Positions 50,734 to 63,483 of a stretch of DNA of 64,000 nt are shown here, one piece after another. Positions within the stretch are counted from its first letter, which is position 1; each line of letters opens with the position of its first letter. A program made the position numbers and the translations under genes. The notes below the pieces were generated by a model, which saw only the letters and a list, made by a program, of their open reading frames with translations, made no database searches and was not told where the DNA came from. The stretch is from Trichocoleus sp. FACHB-46 (GTDB taxonomy: Bacteria; Cyanobacteriota; Cyanobacteriia; FACHB-46). Location: contig NZ_JACJOD010000076.1 in assembly GCF_014695385.1 (NCBI RefSeq), positions 124,001 through 188,000 on the forward strand. Direction: 5' to 3'.

Positions 50734-51570
50734 TTATCCCTCTTTGAGAAAGTCTAGCAGTGCGGGGTTGACTTGTTCTGCATGAGTCCAGTTGATAGCG
50801 TGAGGACCATCAGGTATCACCACTAGACGACTACCTTTAATGAGATTCGGTAACCTGTTACCAGTGGAAGCGATCGGCAGGATGCGATCAGCCTCCCCTT
50901 GAATGATCAGGGTTGGCACATCAATGTGGGGCAAGTCATCCCGGAAATCGGTCAACCAGGAGGGTACACAGTCCAAGGTTCCTTTCGCAGAAGCTCCTGC
51001 CGCAACATTCCAACTCATCTGGATGGCCTCATTGCTGATGCGATCGCCGAGAAATACATCGACATTAAAGAAATTGTGAAGAAATGTAGAGAGATAGGCG
51101 GGACGGTCTGCGACAATGCTCTTCATAATGCCATCGAAGACGCTTTGATCCACTCCTTCCGGGTTATCGTCGGTCTTCAACAGGAAGGGGGGCACCGGAG
51201 CCATTAGTACTGCTTTACTCACCCGCTCTGAGCCGTACTTGCCGAGATAGCGCGTCACTTCACCCGTCCCCATCGAGAAGCCAACCAGCAAAACATCACG
51301 CAGGTCCAGTTCTGTGATGAGTGTGTTTAAATCTGCGGCGAAGGTGTCGTAGTCATAGCCAAAGGATGGCTGACTAGAGTTGCCAAAACCCCGGCGATCG
51401 TACGTGATGACTCGGTAGCCTGCTGCCAGCAAAACCCCTACTTGCTTTTCCCAGGAATGTCCGTTCAACGGAAAACCGTGAATGAGAACCACAGGCTGAC
51501 CTGTTCCGTGGTCTTCGTAGTAGATATCGATAGTGCCAGAATTTTCTTTGCCAACGGTGACGTAAGACAC
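50734..51570 (-). CDS. Alpha/beta hydrolase (non-haem haloperoxidase/arylesterase type)
   Basis: A 278-residue serine hydrolase: HGFPLNGHSW (oxyanion hole), GFSMGTGEV (nucleophile elbow), Asp in GEADRILPI and His in DGPHAINW. It resembles cofactor-free chloroperoxidases, whose physiological role is usually ester hydrolysis or perhydrolysis. The frame reaches back to 51609, but the GTG at 51570 has an AAAGGAGA box about eight bases upstream and gives the normal family N terminus. Another hydrolase gene of different type lies just upstream. Confidence 0.88.
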   Translation of the reverse strand: MSYVTVGKENSGTIDIYYEDHGTGQPVVLIHGFPLNGHSWEKQVGVLLAAGYRVITYDRRGFGNSSQPSFGYDYDTFAADLNTLITELDLRDVLLVGFSMGTGEVTRYLGKYGSERVSKAVLMAPVPPFLLKTDDNPEGVDQSVFDGIMKSIVADRPAYLSTFLHNFFNVDVFLGDRISNEAIQMSWNVAAGASAKGTLDCVPSWLTDFRDDLPHIDVPTLIIQGEADRILPIASTGNRLPNLIKGSRLVVIPDGPHAINWTHAEQVNPALLDFLKEG

Positions 51571-51663
51571 TTTAAAGTCTCCTTTCTGTGAGTAAGTCTG
51601 TGGAATCATTCACCTGTGCCAAGAGGCTACTCTTCTTGGCCACAAAACAGTATTTCAACTAAG

Positions 51664-52476
51664 CTAGGATGCTTTCATCGCAGCAGTTGCAGCCGCCTCG
51701 ATAAATTTAGCAACCTCTTTGGGATGAGAGACAAAGGGCACATGACTGGACTTGATCTCGCTAGTTTTGGCACCGATGCGTTTTGCCATAAAGCGCTCAA
51801 GTTCAGGGTTGATCGCCCGGTCTTCTTGAGTCACGAGATACCAGGAGGGAATTGTTTTCCAGGCAGCGCGATCCACTGCTTGATTGAAAGCGATACTAGC
51901 GACTGGCTTTTGGGTCGCTGCCATCACTCGGGCCTCAGCTAAGGAAACATCCTGAGCAAAGAACTCATGTAGCTTGGCTCGATCAATGAAGAGAAAGCCT
52001 GCGGTATCAGGCACAATTGCGGTGCTGAGTGGGGGGGCTGCATACCTACCATTCAACTCACTAATTTTTTCGCCTGCTTCGGGGGCAAAACCAGCGATAT
52101 AAACCAATGCCTTGACTTGTGGGTTGGTAGCTGCCGCGCTCGTAATCACGCTTCCCCCATAAGAATGTCCAACCACCACGACAGCACCCTTCTGAGCATC
52201 AATCACTCGCTTAGTGGTGGCAATATCTTCTGGGAGAGAGGTGAGCGTATTCTGCACAGCCGTCACAGTGTAGCCATCTTGTTCTAGCAACGGAATGATG
52301 TGTTGCCAGGATGTGGCATCAGCGAAGGTACCGTGAACCAGAACGATCGCGGGTTTGGAGTTGGAGCTTTGGGTTACTTCCTTAGAAGTGGCTACTTCTG
52401 CACGTATCAGCACAATTATTGAAACACTGAATGCCAGTAGCAACAGCAAAAGTTTTTGAATTTTGATGATTAGCAT
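51664..52476 (-). CDS. Exported alpha/beta hydrolase (EstC-like)
   Basis: A 270-residue serine hydrolase with VHGTFADATSW (HG oxyanion region), GHSYGG nucleophile elbow and a His in SSHVPFVSHP. An N-terminal hydrophobic stretch (residues about 9-25) acts as a signal peptide or anchor. The start codon and the sequence upstream of it match, nearly base for base, an internal part of the DsbA-like gene at 54045-54090. The 5' end of this gene was therefore rebuilt on a relic, and no ordinary ribosome-binding site is seen (GGAG is only one or two bases from the ATG). Substrate unknown. Confidence 0.8.
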   Translation of the reverse strand: MLIIKIQKLLLLLLAFSVSIIVLIRAEVATSKEVTQSSNSKPAIVLVHGTFADATSWQHIIPLLEQDGYTVTAVQNTLTSLPEDIATTKRVIDAQKGAVVVVGHSYGGSVITSAAATNPQVKALVYIAGFAPEAGEKISELNGRYAAPPLSTAIVPDTAGFLFIDRAKLHEFFAQDVSLAEARVMAATQKPVASIAFNQAVDRAAWKTIPSWYLVTQEDRAINPELERFMAKRIGAKTSEIKSSHVPFVSHPKEVAKFIEAAATAAMKAS

Positions 52477-52606
52477 ACTCCACCAAATAGCCGCTTCTTC
52501 ATACTTGTTGATAGGATGAATTTGAGGTTGAGGGAACTACCGAAACACAAAACATAGATAGTCTCCCGCAGCAGAGGTCGCATCGAGCTATCTTTGGATT
52601 GTCTTA
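52474..52606 (-). pseudogene. Relic of the DsbA-like gene
   Basis: Two blocks align with the intact DsbA-like gene (53839-54444). CATACTCCACCAAATAGCC matches 54045-54063 with the following TTGTTGAT; TTGAGGTTGAGGGAACT...CGAAACACAAA...CATAGATA matches 54172-54230 with few changes. About 80 bases between the blocks are deleted, and the frame is broken. It runs straight into repeat copy A, as the intact gene's upstream region leads to copy B. Confidence 0.75.
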
Positions 52607-52616
52607 ATTTGCATCA

Positions 52617-52731
52617 CCCTAATTTAGGGAACTCCCTCAGATCTGTCGTCCATTCCAAGTTCATACTTGCAGCCACACAACGATCAGCCATTAGGCAATC
52701 TGAAGTATGGGGTTGGCATCCAACTTAAGTT
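52617..52731 (-). repeat. Copy A of a three-copy 115-bp intergenic element
   Basis: Bounded by the palindrome AACTTAAGTT (52722-52731) and the inverted repeat CCCTAATTTAGGG (52617-52629). Read on the minus strand it matches copies B (54529-54643) and C (61996-62111) over its full length, with closer identity to C. It sits upstream of the decayed DsbA relic and the exported hydrolase gene. Confidence 0.75.
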
Positions 52732-52767
52732 CAGATCTATCTCAAACTTAGAGGCAAAACTCATAGT

Positions 52768-52907
52768 GCCGTCATTAATGAAGATACGGATATGGCTGTG
52801 ATTACTCAGGCTAAAGATGAGGTTGAGGCGATCGCGCTGTTCCGCCAAGTGCAACCCGATGTAGCCTTAATGGATTTGCATTAAAACGAAGGATTGCCAG
52901 TCTGTAA
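52768..52907 (+). pseudogene. Relic of the NarL-type response regulator
   Basis: The translation from 52768 matches residues 24-60 of the intact regulator at 61330 (pattern INE-x-x-DMAVI, then LFRQVQPDV-x-LMDL). It then jumps by a deletion of about 420 bases to the last codons (LKR-x-IASL-stop), ending at TAA 52905-52907. The join is out of frame. The phospho-Asp region is kept but the output domain is lost. Confidence 0.8.
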
Positions 52908-52922
52908 GCTTGGCACCTTAGC

Positions 52923-53147
52923 TTACTCCCTTCCCGCCCAAAGATTAGGAACTAAGTGAAAAGATAAGCCCGGATAATCCGGTGCGATCAGATGGAATTT
53001 ATCAGCAAGCGCAGGCATGAGATTGCGGAACATGTGAGAGGAGGTCGGGAAGCGGTGCAACAGCAAAATCGTTGGATTGTCACGGGAACCAACTTCTCGA
53101 TAAAAGATATCTAAACTATCGATCGCGATCGTGCAATATGTGATCAT
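52923..53147 (-). pseudogene. Truncated alpha/beta hydrolase (N-terminal fragment)
   Basis: The 74 codons match only the first quarter of an epoxide-hydrolase-like alpha/beta hydrolase (FYREVG, then [10 protein letters not shown] and HLIAPDYPG). The chain ends in unrelated sequence after DYPG, without nucleophile, acid or His. The oxyanion HG motif reads LLHRFP, with Arg in place of Gly. Both features mark it as a non-functional remnant. Confidence 0.75.
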
Positions 53148-53209
53148 GGAATGCCCCCTAGTGGACTTATTGGTTTATTGAAGGCAAAACTGTGGTGCAT
53201 TTACGGCAA

Positions 53210-53779
53210 CTACTTTGGCATGGGTTGCCACGTCGAGAAGTTAGCAAGGTGTGCCCAGTAAGAACTCAATCCAATAAACGTAAAGATGAGAGCTGCCGTA
53301 ATTAATACAATTGCTCCAATACTTCGCAGAAACCAATTCTTCTTGAAGTAGAGCGTTGGGGCAGAGAAAACTCCTCCGAGACCAACTAGAATGAACCCAA
53401 GTCCTGCCAACAGGGAAATCGGTATTGCGCCTAGGTTGATGATACGAAAGCCAATTACAAGCGATACAAGTCCTGCAAAGAAGCCATAAGCACCGAGGGT
53501 CAGCAGGTCCCAACCCATTGCCAGAGCGAGTGAAGTTCCGACGAGGAGAATGCCAAACAGGACTGTTGTTTCACCAAAAGCAATATTGAAACTACCAATC
53601 ACAGGCCAAGTCAACGTCATGTGTAAGCCAGTGACTAACGCGATCGCACCCACGACCCCGAAGCCTGGAATCCAACGTCTCTGATTTGACTCACCCAGAC
53701 CGAAATACACATAGGCAGCTAATAGAGCCAGGCCAGCCGCCAGGTTAATGAGCATGAGTGTAATGTAATCAATAAACAT
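53210..53779 (-). CDS. DUF981 family membrane protein, copy 1
   Basis: A 189-residue polytopic membrane protein with about six hydrophobic helices, starting MFIDYITLMLINLAAGLALL; I recognise it as DUF981-like. It is nearly identical in layout to the copy at 62908-63483 (most residues the same, including the stretch FNIAFGETTVLFGILLVGTSLA). The upstream leader is also shared (AAAACCGA and GGAGATCT before the ATG), so the duplication included the translation start region. No catalytic motif is recognised. It lies 59 bases downstream of the DsbA-like gene, probably in one transcript. Confidence 0.85.
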   Translation of the reverse strand: MFIDYITLMLINLAAGLALLAAYVYFGLGESNQRRWIPGFGVVGAIALVTGLHMTLTWPVIGSFNIAFGETTVLFGILLVGTSLALAMGWDLLTLGAYGFFAGLVSLVIGFRIINLGAIPISLLAGLGFILVGLGGVFSAPTLYFKKNWFLRSIGAIVLITAALIFTFIGLSSYWAHLANFSTWQPMPK

Positions 53780-53838
53780 GAGATCTCCTATAAATGCTCG
53801 GTTTTATTGAGACGTAGATAAAGAGTGTGGAATGCTGA

Positions 53839-54444
53839 TTAATCACCTGAATTGGGGGCAATAGCTGCCATCAATGGCTCAATGTCCCAGCGATCGCGAT
53901 ACCGCCTCCCATTGATAAACAGGGCTGGCGCAGCTTCGACGCCACTTTGCATTCCGCTGGTGATATCCTCATTGATACGATCGCGGTGCACTTGTCTGCT
54001 GATGGCTCGCAAAAACTGGCAGATATCGAGTCCGAGATCATTGGCATACTCCACCAAATAGCCACTGCCTAAGGCTTGTTGATGGGTGAATAACATATCG
54101 TGCATCTGCCAGAACTGCCCCTGTGCCCCTGCTGCTAGAGCTGCTGCCGCTGCCTTTTGAGCTTGAGGATGGAGTTGAAGTTGAGGGAACTGCCGAAACA
54201 CAAAGCATAGATAATTTTCCTCCGCGAAGGTCACATCAAGCTGTGCTTGAATTGCCTTAATTAAGGAATAAAGTTCTTTACACTCAAGACACTGATAATC
54301 TCCATACTCAACGAGCACCACGTTGGCATCGAGTTTTCCCTGGCGGTAGTCTCGCTCGGAGGGAGGTAGCACTAACGAGTTGCGTTCACTCTGTATCTCC
54401 ATTGGAGAATCGCCAGATGCTTCTTCAGAAATATCGTGACTCAT
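53839..54444 (-). CDS. DsbA-like thioredoxin-fold protein
   Basis: A 201-residue thioredoxin-fold oxidoreductase of the DsbA/DSBA-like group. The strand-turn VLVEYGDYQC holds a CLEC active site (Cys52 and Cys55) instead of the usual CPxC. The helical insertion (AAAAALAAGAQGQFWQMHDML) and the cis-Pro region GVEAAPALFINGRRYRD are typical. No signal peptide is visible, so it may act in the cytoplasm, unlike classic DsbA. The frame opens at TTG 54462; the ATG at 54444 is favoured. It is preceded by repeat copy B. A decayed copy lies at 52474-52606. Confidence 0.85.
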   Translation of the reverse strand: MSHDISEEASGDSPMEIQSERNSLVLPPSERDYRQGKLDANVVLVEYGDYQCLECKELYSLIKAIQAQLDVTFAEENYLCFVFRQFPQLQLHPQAQKAAAAALAAGAQGQFWQMHDMLFTHQQALGSGYLVEYANDLGLDICQFLRAISRQVHRDRINEDITSGMQSGVEAAPALFINGRRYRDRWDIEPLMAAIAPNSGD

Positions 54445-54528
54445 GCTAAACCTGAGAAGCAAAGAGGGTTCATTATACGAGACGTACTGTGAAATCTCTT
54501 TGCCTCAGCCCTAGAACTGTTTGTATGA

Positions 54529-54643
54529 CCCTAATTTAGGGGACTAACGCTAAGCTGTCTTCCATTCAAGGTCCATTGTTGAAGCCATACAACGATCAAT
54601 CTTTGGGTAATCAAAGGTATTGGCTTGATGTCAAACTTAAGTT
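54529..54643 (-). repeat. Copy B of the three-copy 115-bp element
   Basis: Bounded by AACTTAAGTT (54634-54643) and CCCTAATTTAGGG (54529-54541), the same length as copy A. It separates the TetR stop codon (one-base overlap) from the DsbA-like gene, whose start codon lies 85 bases further on the minus strand. Position suggests a promoter or regulatory region for the DsbA-like and DUF981 genes. Confidence 0.75.
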
Positions 54644-55254
54644 CATAGATTGGAACAAGCTTGCAATGCCATCTCAACCACCTGTAGGAGGTCTGCGCGG
54701 CTGGCTCCACTGGAGGCTTGGACGGACATGCCAAAGTTGACAGTTAGGACAAAGCGGGCCAAGGCAGCGGGGTCAGTATCAGACGACAAATCCCCTTCCG
54801 CGATCGCCCGCTCAAAGCGATCGCAAATTGTTGCCTCGATTAATATTCGGCGTTCTGCCAGTTCTTGATAGAGTGGATCGCTTGGATCAGCACATGAAAG
54901 CACAGTTTGGGCATAGAGGCATCTTGGCGGATTGTCTGGATTCGTCAGCAAATCAACCACCCCATACATCATTCGCTCGATCACTTTACGGGCAGTCGGC
55001 TCCTTTAGAGCTTGGGCCATGTAGGGTGTTTGTTGCTCTTGGTAAAGATCGAGCACCTTACGAAATAGAGTTTCCTTATTACCAAAAGCCGCATAGAGGC
55101 TGGGACGGTTAATCCCCATTGCCTCCGTGAGTTCGGTCAAGGATGTTCCCAGATAGCCCTTGCGCCAAAACACCTGTAGAGCTTTTTCTAAGGCTTCGTC
55201 GATATCGAAAGCGCGAGGACGTCCCTGAGCAGTGTGAAGTTTTCTCGTTTCCAT
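54643..55254 (-). CDS. TetR/AcrR-family transcriptional regulator
   Basis: A 203-residue repressor. The HTH region is ALEKALQVFWRKGYLGTSLTELTEAMGINRPSLYAAFGNKE in pieces near residues 15-55. The ligand-binding domain follows, ending in the helix RADLLQVVEMALQA. The ATG at 55254 lies inside a 14-bp inverted repeat, so autorepression is likely. The frame extends to a TTG at 55287, but the homology starts at the ATG. There is no obvious ribosome-binding site, so it may be leaderless or weakly translated. It is divergent from the giant kinase gene and could control it too. Confidence 0.85.
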   Translation of the reverse strand: METRKLHTAQGRPRAFDIDEALEKALQVFWRKGYLGTSLTELTEAMGINRPSLYAAFGNKETLFRKVLDLYQEQQTPYMAQALKEPTARKVIERMMYGVVDLLTNPDNPPRCLYAQTVLSCADPSDPLYQELAERRILIEATICDRFERAIAEGDLSSDTDPAALARFVLTVNFGMSVQASSGASRADLLQVVEMALQACSNL

Positions 55255-55266
55255 ACTGTTCAGTAT
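55253..55266. promoter_or_regulatory. TetR operator-like inverted repeat over the start codon
   Basis: ATACTG-TT-CAGTAT is a 14-bp interrupted palindrome covering the TetR start codon. TetR regulators commonly bind such sites in their own promoters; the divergent kinase start is 78 bases away. Confidence 0.6.
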
Positions 55267-55343
55267 AAAACTTTCTTGACACCCCAAGTTAAGCAGGAGA
55301 TACTTTCTGTACCGATTGGTAAATAAATTACAGGCTAGTAATT

Positions 55344-58300
55344 ATGATTTCCTTACCAAACGTCATTGTTCAAGGAAAGCTTTACGAAAGCCGCAACTCT
55401 CTGGTTTACCGAGGGATTAGAAAATCAGATCACTTGCCGATCATCCTCAAAGTTCTTAAGCAAGACTATCCCACTCCATCCGAACTGATTCGTTATAAGC
55501 AGGAATATGAAATCACCCAATCACTTAATCTTGAGGGAGTGATCAAAGCTTACGCACAGCAGGATTATCAAAGAACGCTCGTCATTCTTCTAGAAGATTT
55601 TGGTGGCAAGTCCTTAGAAAAATGGATTCGGGACGCTGCTAAGTCATACTGCCCCATGCCTCTACCTGAGTTTCTGCGTTTTGCAATTACGGTTACGAAG
55701 ATCTTGGGGGACATTCATACTGCCAACGTAATTCATAAAGATATCAACCCCAGTAATATCGTGCTCAATCCCCAAACGGGACAAGTTAAAGTTATCGATT
55801 TTGGTATTTCTACACGTCTGGGTCGCACTAATCCTACCTTTAACAACCCCCATATTCTAGAAGGTACTTTAGCGTACATTTCCCCAGAGCAAACTGGGCG
55901 CATGAACCGCTCGTTGGATTATCGCACTGATTTTTATTCCCTCGGTATCACCTTCTACGAACTGCTCACTGGACAGTTACCGTTTCCTACCGCTGACATT
56001 CTTGAATTAGTTCATTGTCACATCGCCAAACAACCTGTGCCGCCGCATGAGTTGAATGCAGAGATTCCTAAAGCCATGTCAGATATGGTTTTAAAGCTGA
56101 TGGCGAAAAATGCGGAAGATCGCTATCAGAGTGCATGGGGCATCAAAGCGGATTTAGAACTCTGTGCTCAGCAGTTAACAGAAACAGATCTAATAGGTAA
56201 CTTGCAGCTGGGGTTGCATGATGTTTCTGATCAGTTTCAAATTCCCCAAAAATTGTATGGACGCAGCGCAGAGATTGCGGCCCTACTGGCATCATTTGAC
56301 AGAGTGGCCGCAAGAATTAAAACAGGGATAACAGAAATAAAAAGGGAAGAAAACACAGGGGATATAGATATCTCTCGTTCCTCGATTCCTATACCTTCTG
56401 AAAGGTTGCTCGTCTCTGGCTATGCTGGTGTTGGCAAATCAGCTCTGGTTCAGGAACTTTACAAACCTATCACAGCAAGACGTGGCTATTTTGTCTCTGG
56501 TAAGTTTGACCAATTGCAGCGCAATACTCCCTATAGTGCGATCGCCCATGCTCTACAAAAATTAGTGCAACAACTGCTGGGCGAACCCGATGAGCAGTTG
56601 CAACAGTGGCGATCGCGCCTACTTGCAGCGTTGGGAAGCAATGGGCAACTAGTTGTTGATGTGATTCCTGAATTGGAATTGATTGTAGGCAAACAGCCCC
56701 CTGTCATAGAAGTGGGAGCAACAGAAGCACAGAATCGTTTCAACCGCATCTTTCAGCAATTTTTACGGGTGTTTTGTTCAGAGTCACATCCTTTAGTAAT
56801 CTTTTTAGATGATTTGCAGTGGATCGACTCCGCCACGCTGAAGCTAATTGGACTGATGTTACTGGATGAACAAGCCCAATCGCTATTTTTGATCGGAGCC
56901 TATCGAGATAATGAAGTACATCCAACTCATCCATTGACTTTAGCGCTAGAGAGCTTACGGAAACAGGGAGCGGTGTTTCAAGAAATTGTTCTTCGACCTT
57001 TAATGCTAGAACCGTTAAGCCAGTTGCTTGCTGAGACACTACATCAGGATGTTGAAACCGTTCGTTCTCTAGCTCAGTTAGTATTGCGTAAAACCGAGGG
57101 CACCCCTTTCTTTGTCAATGAATTTTTGCGAATGTTGTATGGCCAAAATCTGTTGACTTTTGATGCTGCACACCGAAGCTGGCAGTGGAACATTGCTCAG
57201 ATTGAAGCCCAGAATATCACTGATAATGTCGTAGATCTGATGCTAGTCAAGTTGAAGAAACTGCCAAAGGACACGCAGCGTCTTTTGCGGCTAGCCGCTT
57301 GTATTGGATCTGAATTTGATTTGGATACTTTAGCGCTCGTTTGTGAGCAGTCTTCCAACAGAGTATTTCGAGATTTGCTGCCAGCGCTCCAGGAAGGATT
57401 TATTCAGCCTCTCTCTGAATTAGATCAAGACCTATTATTTCAGCAATACAAGTTCCTGCACGATCGCGTCCAGCAAACTGCTTATGCTTTGATTGATCCA
57501 TCACAAAAACACATTATTCATCTGCAAATTGGTCGCAATCTCCTCGAAAAAACTTTATTAGAACCTCTGTCAGACTGGCTATTTAAATCAGTTGATCATC
57601 TAAACTACGGGATTAACCTTGTTACTGATGCTGATGAACGAATTGAGATTGCCAAGTTAAATTTGATGGCAGGGCGTAAGGCAAAAGCCGCGATCGCCTA
57701 CAGAGCAGCAAAAAAATATTTAGCTCAAGGAAGAGAATGGCTAACATTTTCTAGCTGGCAGAGTCATTATAACCTAACCTTAGAGTTGTATATAGAAACC
57801 ACAGAAGTTTCGTATTTATGTGGTGAGTTTGAAGATGTAGAGCAGTGGGCAGGAGTTGCTCTGATAGAAGCCAAAACGGTTCTCGATAGCGTAAAGCTCT
57901 ACGAAATTAAAGTTCAAGCATACATCGCGCAGAAACAGCTAGTAAAAGCCATTAACACTGCATTACAAGTTTTGCAGCAGCTAGGAATTAGTTTCCCTAA
58001 AACGCCCACCCCATCGGAAATTCGCCGTGAACTAGACGCGACCACATCTCTCTTTGACAATTGCCAGATCGGGGACTTAATCCATTTGCCAGAAATGATC
58101 GAACTGGAAAAATTAGCGGCGATGCGAATCCTATCCAGCATCACGATCACTGCCCAAATCGCTGCTCCTAATTTGACACCGCTACTTGCATCCAAACAGG
58201 TCAACCTGTCTATTCTGTATGGCAATGCATTTGTGTCTCCCTTTGCTTACGCCACCTTTGGGTTAATTCTTTGTGGTGTGGTCGGAAACATAGAGTCTGG

Positions 58301-61300
58301 CTATGAGTTCGGACAGCTTGCTATAAGGCTTTTATCACAGTGTCATACCCATGCCTTGAAAGCCAGGACTTTGAATATCGTAAATAATTTTATTATTCAC
58401 TGGAAAGAACATGCTAGAGAGCTATTGAAGCCTTTGTTAGAAGGCTATCAAAGCGGGCTAGAAACTGGAGATTTAGAATTTGCTGCCTATTGTGCTTATA
58501 CTTACTGCTTTCAATCCTATGCGAATGGAAAAGAACTCATAGAAGTTGAACACAATATGGCGATCTATGGAGAAGCAATTCGTCAAATTAAGCAAGAAAC
58601 AGCATATACCTGGAATCAGATATTTCGGCAGGCCATCATAAACTTGACAGGACAATCGGCCAACCCAACCCAACTAGTTGGCGAATCCTACAATGAGGAC
58701 AATGAACTGCCAAAATACGAATCCAGAAATGATGGAAGCAGCATCTTTTCTGTCTATTTTAACAAACTTTTCCTATGCTACCTTTTTTCTGAATATGCTC
58801 AAGCTGTTGAAAACGGAGTCCTAGCGGGAAGTTATCTGATTCGATTAACAGGCACATCTCTTGAGCCTCTGTACTATCTCTATATTTCTCTCGCAAGGCT
58901 CGCAATATATCCTGAAAGCAGCAATCAAGTACAGAAAGAACTCCTCCAAGAAGTTACCCTAAGCCAGGAGAAAATGAAGCTATGGGCACATCATGCGCCA
59001 ATGAACTATTTGCATAAATATAATTTAGTTCAAGCAGAGACGGCACAAGTTTTGGGGCAGTGGTTTGAGGCGGAGGAGTTTTATGAACAAGCGATTCAAG
59101 GAGCTAGGGAAAATGAATATATTCAGGAAGAGGCATTAGCATACGAATTGGCTGCAAAACATTATTTGGCGCGTGGTCGCGAAAAGTTTGCTCAAACCTA
59201 CATGAAAGAAGCTCACTACTGTTATGAACGTTGGGGAGCCACAGTGAAGGTGAAAGATTTAGAAACTCGCTACCCACAGTTTTTTCCTCAAGCGTCTGAT
59301 GTGGTTTCGCCAACCTATAAAACTTCTGAAACCACCTCTAATCGCTCAGACCTTGCTTTAGATTTAGCGGCTGTGCTGAAAGCCTCTCAGGCGATATCCA
59401 GTGAAATTGAATTGGATCAGTTGCTCCGCTCCTTAATGCAAATTTTAATCGAGACTGCTGGGGCTCAAACCGGATGCTTGATTTTAGAAAATGCAGGTGA
59501 ATGGGCGATCGAAGCAGCTTGTGAACTTAGTCAAGGAGAGAACGTCTGTACTACGAGAGTGCTGCAATCGCTTCCAACGACAAATCATCTACCAGAATCA
59601 ATTATTCAGTATGTGATTCGAACTCACGAATCTGTCATCTTGAATGACGCTACTCGTGAAGGCAATTTTATTCATGATCCCTATATTCAGCACCACAAAA
59701 CTCGATCGCTTCTCTGTTTACCGCTGCTGAATCAAAGTAAGCTTGTGGGCGTGCTGTACCTGGAAAATCAATTAGCAACCGGAGTTTTTTCACCAGAGCG
59801 ATCGCAGGTGTTGAATCTACTATCTAGCCAGGCAGCGATCGCCATTGAAAATGCCAAACTTTACTCCAAGCTCCGCACAAGTGAAAGCCACATGACACAA
59901 TTTCTAGAAGCCGTTCAAGTGGGAATTGGGGTATTAGATGCAACAGGCCGCCCCTACTATGTCAATCAACGGGGAACTCAATTATTGGGAAAAGGTATTG
60001 ACCCTGTCGCGTCACCAGACTATTTTTCGGAGATCTATCAAGTTTATCTATCAGGCACCAATCAGATATATCCAACTGAGAAAATGCCAATCGTCCGAGC
60101 GCTGAATGGTGAACGCACTAGGATTGATGATATGGAGATTCATCAAAACGACAAAATCATTCCAGTTGAAGTCTGGGGAACACCAATCTTTGACGAACAG
60201 GGTAATGTGACATATGCGATTGCAGCCTTTCAAGACATTACGGAACGTAGACAAACCGAACAACTCCTAACCGATTACAACCGTACCTTAGAGCAACAAG
60301 TGGCGGAACGAACGGTAGCCCTACAGAAAAGCGAAGCCGAACTGCGTCGTCGAGAACAAGAACTACGGCTGATCACCGACACTCTCCCTGCTCTAGTCGC
60401 TTATGTAGATGGCAATCGTCGCTATCAATTTATTAACCGTACCTACGAGGTCTGGTTCAATCGCAGTCGAGATGAGATTTTAGGTAGATACGTCCATGAA
60501 TTGCTCGATGAAACCGTTTATCAGAGAGTTGAACCGTTTATTCATCAAGTATTTACAGGGCAAACTGTAAGCCTGGAAGCAGAAGTTCCCTTCCCAGTGG
60601 GTAAAAAGTCCATCAGTGCTACCTTGATCCCCGATTTTGATGTCAATGCTCAAGTGGGAGGATTCTACAGCCTCATCACAGACATCAGCGACCAAAAACG
60701 TGCCGAAGAAGCCTCCATTCTAGAAGAGCGCAACCGCATGGCGCGAGAAATTCACGATACATTGGCGCAAGCCTTTACAGGCATTCTGCTGCATACTGGA
60801 GCAGCGACAGAGTTAATGACCAAGAAACCAGAGACTGCTCAGGCACACCTGGAAACTGTGGATGAATTAGCCCGCACCGGATTAGCTGAAGCCCGCCGAT
60901 CCGTGACGACCCTCCGACCTAAATTGTTGGAGGAGGGAAACTTGTATCATGCGCTCAATCATCTAACTCATCAAATGAAGTCTTCCACAAAGACTCATCT
61001 CACCTGTCAAACCATTGGTGAAGTTTATGCTTTACTACCCGATGTGGAAAATAACCTATTACGTATCGGACAAGAAGCTTTAACCAACGCCATTAAATAT
61101 GCCAACGCCACTGAAATTTGTATTGAGTTGGTGTACGAGAAGACGCAATGTCTATTACGAGTGAAAGATGATGGACAAGGGTTTGAAGTGGAAGTATACC
61201 CAACTCAGGGATTTGGTTTACTGGGGATGAGTGAACGGGTTGAGCAGATTGGCGGTGAATTAACCATCAGCAGCCAGCCGAATCAAGGTACAGAAATCAT

Positions 61301-61322
61301 TGTCATCGTAAACCGGGAGTAA
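55344..61322 (+). CDS. Giant Ser/Thr kinase-AAA-GAF-PAS-histidine kinase
   Basis: A 1992-residue signalling protein. Residues about 10-270 form a Ser/Thr protein kinase domain with HKDINPSN (catalytic Asp near 133) and the DFG metal motif near 152. Residues about 300-700 hold a STAND/AAA-type ATPase with Walker A GYAGVGKS (about 358). A long helical repeat region reaches about 1320. A GAF domain is at about 1345-1505, PAS domains at about 1515-1632 and 1672-1785. A NarL-partner-type histidine kinase ends it, with HisKA_3 acceptor REIHDTLAQ (His near 1802) and HATPase GQEALTNAIKYA, GFGLLGMSERV. No membrane helices. The response regulator gene starts seven bases after its stop, so they form an operon. 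This architecture is common in filamentous cyanobacteria. Confidence 0.93.
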   Translation: MISLPNVIVQGKLYESRNSLVYRGIRKSDHLPIILKVLKQDYPTPSELIRYKQEYEITQSLNLEGVIKAYAQQDYQRTLVILLEDFGGKSLEKWIRDAAKSYCPMPLPEFLRFAITVTKILGDIHTANVIHKDINPSNIVLNPQTGQVKVIDFGISTRLGRTNPTFNNPHILEGTLAYISPEQTGRMNRSLDYRTDFYSLGITFYELLTGQLPFPTADILELVHCHIAKQPVPPHELNAEIPKAMSDMVLKLMAKNAEDRYQSAWGIKADLELCAQQLTETDLIGNLQLGLHDVSDQFQIPQKLYGRSAEIAALLASFDRVAARIKTGITEIKREENTGDIDISRSSIPIPSERLLVSGYAGVGKSALVQELYKPITARRGYFVSGKFDQLQRNTPYSAIAHALQKLVQQLLGEPDEQLQQWRSRLLAALGSNGQLVVDVIPELELIVGKQPPVIEVGATEAQNRFNRIFQQFLRVFCSESHPLVIFLDDLQWIDSATLKLIGLMLLDEQAQSLFLIGAYRDNEVHPTHPLTLALESLRKQGAVFQEIVLRPLMLEPLSQLLAETLHQDVETVRSLAQLVLRKTEGTPFFVNEFLRMLYGQNLLTFDAAHRSWQWNIAQIEAQNITDNVVDLMLVKLKKLPKDTQRLLRLAACIGSEFDLDTLALVCEQSSNRVFRDLLPALQEGFIQPLSELDQDLLFQQYKFLHDRVQQTAYALIDPSQKHIIHLQIGRNLLEKTLLEPLSDWLFKSVDHLNYGINLVTDADERIEIAKLNLMAGRKAKAAIAYRAAKKYLAQGREWLTFSSWQSHYNLTLELYIETTEVSYLCGEFEDVEQWAGVALIEAKTVLDSVKLYEIKVQAYIAQKQLVKAINTALQVLQQLGISFPKTPTPSEIRRELDATTSLFDNCQIGDLIHLPEMIELEKLAAMRILSSITITAQIAAPNLTPLLASKQVNLSILYGNAFVSPFAYATFGLILCGVVGNIESGYEFGQLAIRLLSQCHTHALKARTLNIVNNFIIHWKEHARELLKPLLEGYQSGLETGDLEFAAYCAYTYCFQSYANGKELIEVEHNMAIYGEAIRQIKQETAYTWNQIFRQAIINLTGQSANPTQLVGESYNEDNELPKYESRNDGSSIFSVYFNKLFLCYLFSEYAQAVENGVLAGSYLIRLTGTSLEPLYYLYISLARLAIYPESSNQVQKELLQEVTLSQEKMKLWAHHAPMNYLHKYNLVQAETAQVLGQWFEAEEFYEQAIQGARENEYIQEEALAYELAAKHYLARGREKFAQTYMKEAHYCYERWGATVKVKDLETRYPQFFPQASDVVSPTYKTSETTSNRSDLALDLAAVLKASQAISSEIELDQLLRSLMQILIETAGAQTGCLILENAGEWAIEAACELSQGENVCTTRVLQSLPTTNHLPESIIQYVIRTHESVILNDATREGNFIHDPYIQHHKTRSLLCLPLLNQSKLVGVLYLENQLATGVFSPERSQVLNLLSSQAAIAIENAKLYSKLRTSESHMTQFLEAVQVGIGVLDATGRPYYVNQRGTQLLGKGIDPVASPDYFSEIYQVYLSGTNQIYPTEKMPIVRALNGERTRIDDMEIHQNDKIIPVEVWGTPIFDEQGNVTYAIAAFQDITERRQTEQLLTDYNRTLEQQVAERTVALQKSEAELRRREQELRLITDTLPALVAYVDGNRRYQFINRTYEVWFNRSRDEILGRYVHELLDETVYQRVEPFIHQVFTGQTVSLEAEVPFPVGKKSISATLIPDFDVNAQVGGFYSLITDISDQKRAEEASILEERNRMAREIHDTLAQAFTGILLHTGAATELMTKKPETAQAHLETVDELARTGLAEARRSVTTLRPKLLEEGNLYHALNHLTHQMKSSTKTHLTCQTIGEVYALLPDVENNLLRIGQEALTNAIKYANATEICIELVYEKTQCLLRVKDDGQGFEVEVYPTQGFGLLGMSERVEQIGGELTISSQPNQGTEIIVIVNRE

Positions 61323-61329
61323 GCATCTC

Positions 61330-61959
61330 ATGAGTCAACCAGCGACTATCCAGGTTCTGCTTGTGGATGATCATGCCATTGTCCAACAGGGATTGGCAGC
61401 TATCATCAATGAAGAATCGGATATGGCTGTCATTGGTCAGGCCAAGAATGGGGTTGAGGCAGTTCAGTTGTTCCGTCAAGTGCAACCCGACGTGACCTTA
61501 ATGGACTTGCGGATGCCACAAATGGGAGGGGTGGAAGCAATTACGGCAATTTGCACTGAGTTCAATACCGCTCGCATCATTGTATTGACTACCTATGACG
61601 GAGATGAGGACATCTATCGGGGGTTGAGAGCAGGTTCAAAGGGATATTTACTTAAAGACTGTAAACCTAATGAACTGAGAACTGCGATTCGTACAGTTCA
61701 CGAGGGGCTACAATATATTCCCCCTCACGTTGGGGCTAAGTTAGCACAGCGCATGACCCATCCAGAGCTGACCGATCGCGAATTAGAGGTGCTTCAGTTG
61801 GTCGCTCAGGGGATGAGCAATCTGGAAATCGGTGCTGCTTTGAGCATTACTGAAAGCACTGTCAAGTCCAACATCAACCGCATTTTAAGCAAGTTAGGCG
61901 CTAAAGACCGCACCCAGGCTACCATCATTGCCTTAAAGCGAGGAATTGCCAGTCTGTAA
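61330..61959 (+). CDS. NarL/LuxR-type response regulator
   Basis: A 209-residue regulator with a receiver (acidic pair Asp13-Asp14, phospho-Asp59 in LMDLRMP, Thr in VLTTYD, Lys in LLKD) and a C-terminal LuxR HTH (about 146-205; LTDRELEVLQLVAQGMSNLEI and STVKSNINRILSKLGA). It is the partner of the giant kinase gene, 7 bases upstream. The AACTTAAGTT/CCCTAA element directly follows its stop codon. A decayed duplicate of this gene is at 52768-52907. Confidence 0.93.
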   Translation: MSQPATIQVLLVDDHAIVQQGLAAIINEESDMAVIGQAKNGVEAVQLFRQVQPDVTLMDLRMPQMGGVEAITAICTEFNTARIIVLTTYDGDEDIYRGLRAGSKGYLLKDCKPNELRTAIRTVHEGLQYIPPHVGAKLAQRMTHPELTDRELEVLQLVAQGMSNLEIGAALSITESTVKSNINRILSKLGAKDRTQATIIALKRGIASL

Positions 61960-61995
61960 AGCCTGTCATATCGACTTAAGTTTGATTTCAAGTTG

Positions 61996-62111
61996 AACTT
62001 AAGTTCGATGCCAACCCAATACTTCAGGTTGCCTCATGATTGATCGTTTTGTGGATTCAAGTATGGACCCTGAATGGACGACAGATTTGAGTTATCCCCT
62101 TAAATTAAGGG
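61996..62111 (+). repeat. Copy C of the three-copy 115-bp element
   Basis: Bounded by AACTTAAGTT (61996-62005) and CCCTTAAATTAAGGG (62097-62111). A second ACTTAAGT occurs at 61974-61981, just after the regulator stop. Same orientation relation to a downstream gene (MOSC) as copies A and B to theirs. Good candidate promoter/operator region. Confidence 0.75.
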
Positions 62112-62200
62112 CATCTAAACGGTTGCAGAGTTGAAGCGAAGAAAATGGACGGCTGTAGAAGGCTGCCATTGCCTCACGACCCAAAGCTGTGGAACTGAAA

Positions 62201-62854: not shown

Positions 62855-62907
62855 ATTAACTCAATTTTTACCTAAACTTCGCTAAAACCGAACATGTGGG
62901 AGATCTT

Positions 62908-63483
62908 ATGTTTATCGATTACCTCACACTCATGCTCATTAACCTGGCGGCTGGACTCGCTCTGTTAGCTGCCTATGTCTATTTTGGTCTGGGTGAGCCA
63001 AATCAGAGACGCTGGATTCCAGGCTTTGGGGTTGTCGGTGGGATCGCTTTAGCCACTGGTTTACACATGACATTTACCTGGCCCATTATTGGTAGTTTCA
63101 ATATTGCCTTTGGTGAAACAACGGTTCTGTTTGGCATTCTCTTCGTCGGCACTTCACTCGCTCTGGCAATGGGTTGGGACCTACTGACCCTCGCTGCTTA
63201 TGGCTTCTTTGCAGGACTTGTATCGCTTCTAATTGGCCTTCGCATCATCAACCTGGGAATCACACAACTTCCTCTGCTTACAGGCATTGGGTTCATTTTA
63301 GTTGGCTTGGGAGGAATTTTTTCTGCTCCGACGCTCTATTTCAAAGAAAACCGATTCTTGCGAACGATTGGAGCAATTGTGTTAATTGTGGCAGCTCTTA
63401 TCTTTGCTTTTATTGGATTGAGTGCCTACTGGGGACATCTTGCTAACTTCTCGACGTGGCAACCCCAAACCCTGACAAAATAG
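62908..63483 (+). CDS. DUF981 family membrane protein, copy 2
   Basis: A 191-residue membrane protein with about six hydrophobic helices, paralogous to the gene at 53210-53779. The two share most residues and the leader AAAACCGA...GGAGATCT. A GTG at 62896 in frame is closer to the start of the frame, but the ATG at 62908, preceded by GGGAGATCT, is the start shared with copy 1. It lies 53 bases after the MOSC gene, so the two may be co-transcribed. Function unknown. Confidence 0.85.
   Translation: MFIDYLTLMLINLAAGLALLAAYVYFGLGEPNQRRWIPGFGVVGGIALATGLHMTFTWPIIGSFNIAFGETTVLFGILFVGTSLALAMGWDLLTLAAYGFFAGLVSLLIGLRIINLGITQLPLLTGIGFILVGLGGIFSAPTLYFKENRFLRTIGAIVLIVAALIFAFIGLSAYWGHLANFSTWQPQTLTK

Follow-up and report, generated by a model that had tools for sequence, protein, structure and literature searches.

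A probable deletion scar of a second kinase-regulator module, with its promoter-like element retained, in Trichocoleus sp. FACHB-46

Introduction

The cyanobacterial dual kinases of the cbSTKIII/HstK class join a Ser/Thr kinase domain to GAF and histidine kinase domains (PMC2176072). The giant kinase of the locus described here resembles them in its domain set; DsbA, MOSC or a shared promoter region go unmentioned in the parts of that account available to us, and the portion of the literature covered by our search yielded nothing on a module made of DsbA, a repeated element, a kinase and a regulator.

Such a module is found in Trichocoleus sp. FACHB-46, within the 64,000-nucleotide stretch that was analyzed and is called here the window (contig NZ_JACJOD010000076.1, or G000:C76:124001-188000, of a genome of 6.56 Mb in 92 contigs). 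All coordinates are those of the window unless a contig or locus is named. We propose that the segment 52465-52965, beside the intact module, is the scar that deletions left of a second copy of this signalling module and that the repeated element is the promoter region of the module, a reading to which we give a probability of about two in three.

Results

The intact module

The gene order of the region is ABH1(-), ABH2(-), scar, DUF981(-), DsbA(-), element B, TetR(-), kinase(+), regulator(+), element C, MOSC(+) and DUF981(+). Based on ORFs and Pfam domains, the intact module spans 53839-61959 in the window and has the composition that an earlier sequence-only reading had described. It includes a DsbA-like gene (53839-54462, minus strand), element B (54523-54662, minus), a TetR-family gene (54643-55287, minus), a hybrid Ser/Thr and histidine kinase of 1992 amino acids (55344-61322, plus; Pfam Pkinase, AAA_16, GAF, PAS, HisKA_3 and HATPase_c) and a NarL-type response regulator (61330-61959, plus; Response_reg and GerE). 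Element B was identified by profile upstream of the intact DsbA gene and overlaps the 3' end of TetR. Element C (61970-62114, plus; profile scores of 112.2 and 100 bits) sits between the regulator and MOSC. A second genome of the same genus (G002) has the same divergent module with TetR, and among all the loci annotated TetR stands next to the module only in these two genomes. No dsbA match was found in the sister genome G001. The gene families, as assigned by Pfam, suggest redox and small-molecule chemistry and nothing more specific.

The repeated element

The aligned copies of the element have a common core of about 115 bases. In most of them the 5' end carries a AACTTAAGTT palindrome, frequently joined by a similar second site some two helical turns upstream, and deeper in the core there are a GACGACA motif and a TAAATTAAGG block. 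At the outer end of many elements (61970-62000 in the window, and other copies) two AACTTAAG-like sites are spaced by about 23 bases; the pair is a candidate for the regulator binding sites. In most annotated loci the element directly follows the stop codon of the regulator and precedes DsbA or MOSC; elements with no regulator beside them, namely element D and those of genome G065, precede dsbA, MOSC-DUF981 or cupin genes. Three loci of the latter (L154, L153 and L155) have elements before dsbA, MOSC-DUF981 and cupin genes with no adjacent regulator, and look like one scattered regulon.

A sequence profile found the element in 65 of 388 cyanobacterial genomes of the class, a count that admits E values up to 0.01, comes from a profile containing copies from this genus and may include chance hits among its weakest matches. 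Eight matches belong to this genome, four of them on this contig. We rejected the idea of a mobile (MITE-like) repeat, since most annotated copies keep a single orientation and a fixed place, either between the regulator and a DsbA, MOSC or cupin gene or directly in front of such a gene, the exceptions being copies with no recognised gene behind them. The element would instead be the promoter and operator region of the target genes of the module, and its place and conservation suggest that it may be controlled by the module's regulator. A simple sigma-70 scan located no site in element A or B.

Structure of the scar

The segment 52465-52907 contains, in sequence, a DsbA relic (minus), element A (minus) and two pieces of a NarL-type regulator (plus). 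This order had been proposed from the letters of the DNA, and blastn inside the window recovered every block where it had been placed; the relic blocks also match the strands of the intact locus at 53839-61959, as had been claimed. All three blocks gave significant alignments (E 3e-8 to 8e-28), with a weaker one for the last regulator piece (E 6e-4).

The DsbA relic (52465-52609, minus) shows 80-82% identity to 54036-54262 and is collinear with the dsbA gene of G002. Its two parts, 52465-52521 and 52513-52609, match 54036-54091 (82%, E 3e-8) and 54166-54262 (80%, E 1e-18), both within the intact DsbA gene. It keeps codons about 67-99 and 124-142 of that gene and contains two in-frame TAG stops. 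Element A (52612-52753, minus) scores 104.9 bits with profile R1 and 83.5 bits, at 52617-52750, with the held-out profile R2, and was also scored by weight matrix. It is intergenic and promoter-like, points toward the DsbA relic and ABH2 and lies 135 bases before ABH2. Its segment 52608-52733 is 75% identical to 54520-54645 of element B (E 5e-18), and 52617-52750 is 80% identical to 62110-61977 of element C in reverse (E 8e-28). The regulator relic (52765-52907, plus), also detected by tblastn, matches the intact gene at 52772-52879 (61403-61510, 81%, E 7e-22) and at 52876-52907 (61928-61959, 88%). The latter piece of 32 bp is weak taken alone and was accepted because it shares the TAA stop and comes directly after the first. 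What remains of the regulator is residues about 23-61 and, stop included, its last 9-10 codons; about 417 bases are gone between the two pieces, and the first piece is also interrupted by a TAA.

Concerning the left side of the scar, element B, DsbA, ABH2 and ABH1 follow one another in G002, where the listed ABH2 frame starts 41 bases past DsbA; the order element, DsbA, ABH2 is also seen in a Nostoc plasmid locus (L120). A junction alignment showed collinearity between the window and G002 over element A, the DsbA relic and ABH2, provided that three deletions are allowed: the 5' third of dsbA plus its leader, some 70-80 bases within dsbA, and about 320 bases from mid-dsbA into the 5' end of ABH2. 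The last one removed the native ABH2 start and fused the C-terminal end of the DsbA relic to ABH2 at 52476. The ABH2 hydrolase gene (51664-52476, minus; ORF and Pfam) therefore has its predicted start codon within the DsbA relic, an ATG that is dsbA sequence read in another frame. ABH2 and the downstream ABH1 hydrolase gene (50734-51609, minus; ORF and Pfam) are otherwise intact, with dN/dS values against G002 of 0.12 and 0.06, respectively.

The DsbA and regulator relics show what defines bacterial pseudogenes: truncation, internal deletion and stop codons with respect to an intact homologue. The dsbA and regulator genes of the putative second copy are dead through at least five deletions plus stop codons; the five are the three from element A to ABH2, one between element A and the regulator piece and one inside the regulator.

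Content of the lost copy

Compared with the intact modules of the same locus and of G002, the scar has the same DsbA, element and regulator, in the same orientations and from the same family members, but lacks TetR, the kinase and most of DsbA and the regulator. The sequence-only reading derived it from a duplication of the whole module, about 8 kb long and inclusive of TetR and kinase, after which these two genes and most of the regulator were deleted. Order and orientation are indeed those of the intact locus. However, blastn inside the window gave no TetR match in the scar, and neither blastn nor tblastn found a kinase remnant at 52750-52772 or elsewhere in it.

The outer end of element A also speaks against such an origin. 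Element B and its G002 counterpart have the TetR stop codon at their outer edge, and the outer 24 bases of A match each of these ends at 6 of 24 positions (p about 0.6). The same bases match regulator-adjacent copies better, namely C37b and L021 (15/24, 0 of 1000 shuffles) and element C (12/24, p 0.016), in a comparison of more than 30 copies with uncorrected p values where several regulator-adjacent copies match no better than chance. Since the outer end of A is unlike the TetR end and TetR accompanies the module only in this genome and G002, TetR was probably missing from this position in the lost copy, except if the end of A has been overwritten by gene conversion.

Nor is element B a favoured source of element A, which is 84% identical to D, 82% to C and 75% to B and falls in a group with D, apart from the DsbA-type element B. 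The AU test depended on the columns used: the grouping of A with B had a p-AU of 0.028 on 196 columns and of 0.17 on 115 columns. Gene conversion may blur the origin of the elements, because promoter copies of one genome tend to cluster (A, C and D here; G2_B and G2_C in G002).

We also considered that a short module had been copied, with promoter and DsbA divergent from a regulator and neither kinase nor TetR, so that small deletions would suffice. A locus of this kind exists, with an element divergent from a regulator 365 bases away and no recognised kinase or TetR between them (L014, the same as L156), but it stands alone among the annotated loci and lacks a DsbA behind its element, whereas whole modules of divergent layout exist in this genome and in G002. 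We regard this origin as unlikely. Among the annotated loci, a DsbA-promoter unit divergent from the kinase-regulator pair is limited to these two genomes, and the best reading is therefore a lineage-specific paralogous module that lost pieces. Of the earlier proposal, a paralogous module reduced by several deletions is what stands; of TetR and kinase, which it took to have been copied as well, the scar shows no remnant. An uncollapsed copy, to be sought in sister strains, was found in neither G001 nor G002, the two other genomes of the genus that were compared.

The right edge

The regulator stop is followed by 12 bases and then by 46 bases (52920-52965, minus) with the last transposase codons and terminus of an insertion sequence, which we take to be of IS630 type. 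Elements of this family target TA. The same end occurs 93% identical over 44 bases beside element D, twice in G001 (C1) and once in G002 (C81), the last three at 85-89%, with different DNA beyond each copy. A transposase frame terminates beside all four of these other copies, with a DDE_3 domain in the one next to element D. The end at 52920-52965 is thus one found at unrelated places, beside a DDE transposase and with TA at the border. The copy by element D (G000:C76:205323-205366; L005 19323-19366) is directly upstream of it, so an insertion sequence struck the outer site of that promoter region too; the TA within the CTTAAG palindrome may be a preferred target. We rejected a single insertion with one side by the regulator relic and the other by element D, since relic and element are both faced by the same IS end.

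Beyond the IS end lies the N-terminal relic of a third alpha/beta hydrolase, ABHc (52965-53151, minus; blastn matches to many loci), whose segment 53008-53151 is 67% identical to residues 2-49 by tblastn. It is followed by an intact DUF981 gene (53210-53779, minus; Pfam), an inverted copy of 62896-63483. The two DUF981 genes form an inverted pair of 86% DNA identity (53222-53806 and 62883-63465) flanking the intact module, and the G002 gene is closer to the left member of the pair (dN 0.062 vs 0.115). Both ABHc and the left DUF981 are inverted relative to the copies beyond MOSC. The window has in this way about 1.36 kb between DsbA and ABH2, with DUF981, hydrolase relic, IS end, regulator relic, element A and DsbA relic, whereas G002 has no second copy there. 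An inverted DUF981 gene and a hydrolase relic between the copies, together with the IS end, indicate that the layout did not come from one tandem duplication; IS activity or recombination probably contributed to it.

These features could also mean that the scar has an independent origin, as separate fragments assembled by IS630 activity and by recombination at the repeated promoter elements. The IS end at its edge, the inverted DUF981 copies and the grouping of A with D, both close to the same IS end, agree with this, but element A, the DsbA relic and ABH2 keep their collinearity with G002, the DsbA and regulator blocks have diverged similarly and the regulator piece is oriented as in the module. 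We consider such an assembly decidedly unlikely.

Age of the duplication

In the first regulator block the identities were 0.81 for relic and window copy, 0.79 for relic and G002 and 0.79 for window copy and G002; in the larger DsbA block they were 0.80, 0.78 and 0.76, respectively. The window copy and G002 differ at 50 sites in three blocks; of these, the relic shares the state of the window copy at 27 and that of G002 at 21, and departs from both at 2. Its differences are largely synonymous, with 18 synonymous differences from the window copy and 25 from G002, both small numbers. This three-way equal divergence implies a duplication about as old as the species split. The copy-number change had been called recent, but the identity of about 80% to the intact copy equals the distance between the two species over the same stretches. 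The synonymous differences lean towards the window copy; even so, given a divergence of between-species size, we find a recent duplication of the complete 8-kb module quite improbable.

Trees built from the coding blocks of the relic did not resolve; in them the partial row of L050 had been misplaced, and the same seems true of L012, L016, L018 and L025 in the second, short block of the regulator, but none of these five loci enters the counts given here. The second copy probably died later than it was made, because many differences of the relic are of the kind seen between working genes.

State of element A

With the held-out profile R2, built without any member of the genus, element A scored 83.5 bits, against 76.4 for B, 85.4 for D, 85.2 for G2B, 86.4 for G2C and 100 for C. 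With a weight matrix made from 27 rows that exclude the genus set, the scores were 124.7 for A, 117.8 for B, 138.5 for C and 126.1 for D. When random changes were introduced in the numbers that separate A from C, D, G2_B, B or the consensus, a score like that of A was reached in 0 of 4000 runs each, and at 5% change from the consensus 82% of the runs reached it. Element A keeps all 33 columns conserved at 95% or more and departs at 4 of 45 columns at 90% conservation; at columns conserved at 85% the departures are 7 of 58 in A, 3 of 56 in B, 0 of 55 in C and 2 of 56 in D. By these sequence scores, element A has not decayed and resembles working copies. A young collapse accounts for its state as well as present use does.

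Element A most likely drives ABH2-ABH1 at present, judging from these scores and its position. A more specific proposal is that the scar is a working fusion where element A, controlled by the regulator, would transcribe ABH2-ABH1, ABH2 would start at the ATG donated by dsbA, and surplus modules of this family would shed their genes but retain the promoter cassette. This we advance tentatively, at somewhat less than even odds. Alternatively, the scar would be no more than inert debris, with an element A that has no gene to drive and an ABH2 expressed from another promoter or by read-through from DsbA-DUF981. In favour of this, an intact-looking A is also what a young collapse would produce, and one sigma-70-like match was located inside ABH2 (52443-52415, minus), in a scan with fewer matches than in shuffles. 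Against it are a terminator-like hairpin ahead of the scar (52982-52970, minus; again fewer than in shuffles) and the fact that element A outscores B, which fronts an intact gene. We hold the inert state to be doubtful.

Discussion

Returning to the deletion scar of a second copy as our preferred reading, the module would consist of the hybrid kinase, the NarL-type regulator and target genes behind a conserved promoter region. The second copy would have arisen in this lineage, functioned for most of its life and collapsed later, presumably because its genes were redundant beside intact copies (there are four other dsbA genes). One deletion joined mid-dsbA to the 5' end of ABH2, an IS630-type end borders the copy, and element A may have been kept as what is now the nearest promoter of ABH2-ABH1. 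In the sister species these two genes are positioned behind dsbA and its element.

The locus offers a base-level example of the decay of a duplicated signalling module, in which coding sequence was lost, the promoter region was kept and a neighbour gene was re-plumbed. If the working fusion is true, module decay rewires a regulon rather than erasing it. The repeated element represents a conserved promoter-like region common to dsbA, MOSC and cupin genes in many cyanobacteria, and it makes the regulon of the hybrid-kinase module predictable and testable.

A similar arrangement is found on plasmid p057_G of Nostoc sp. C057, with a tandem of kinase, regulator, DsbA, kinase, regulator, DsbA and ABH. 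As in the window, there are two adjacent copies and a hydrolase behind the second DsbA; unlike the window, the array is on one strand throughout and uncollapsed, and the regulator relic described here is inverted relative to its layout. Two tandem modules with strongly shortened kinases are also seen in Phormidium tenue FACHB-886 (L024 3893-8508). In the genome of the window, contig C46 has a headless module (L113 1292-1619) in which the regulator is reduced to its DNA-binding end (residues 147-209) and stands before an element and an intact DsbA, with cupin, MOSC and hydrolase genes downstream. A decayed copy also occurs in Leptolyngbya sp. FACHB-321 (L028), with DsbA fragments, a C-terminal kinase fragment and an N-terminal regulator fragment (residues 1-35). 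These fragments adjoin an intact module and ABH2-type genes, as in the window, but they have other breakpoints and canonical orientation and give no sign of a common event. The decayed copies in C46, L028 and L024 indicate that the decay of surplus modules is not unique to the window.
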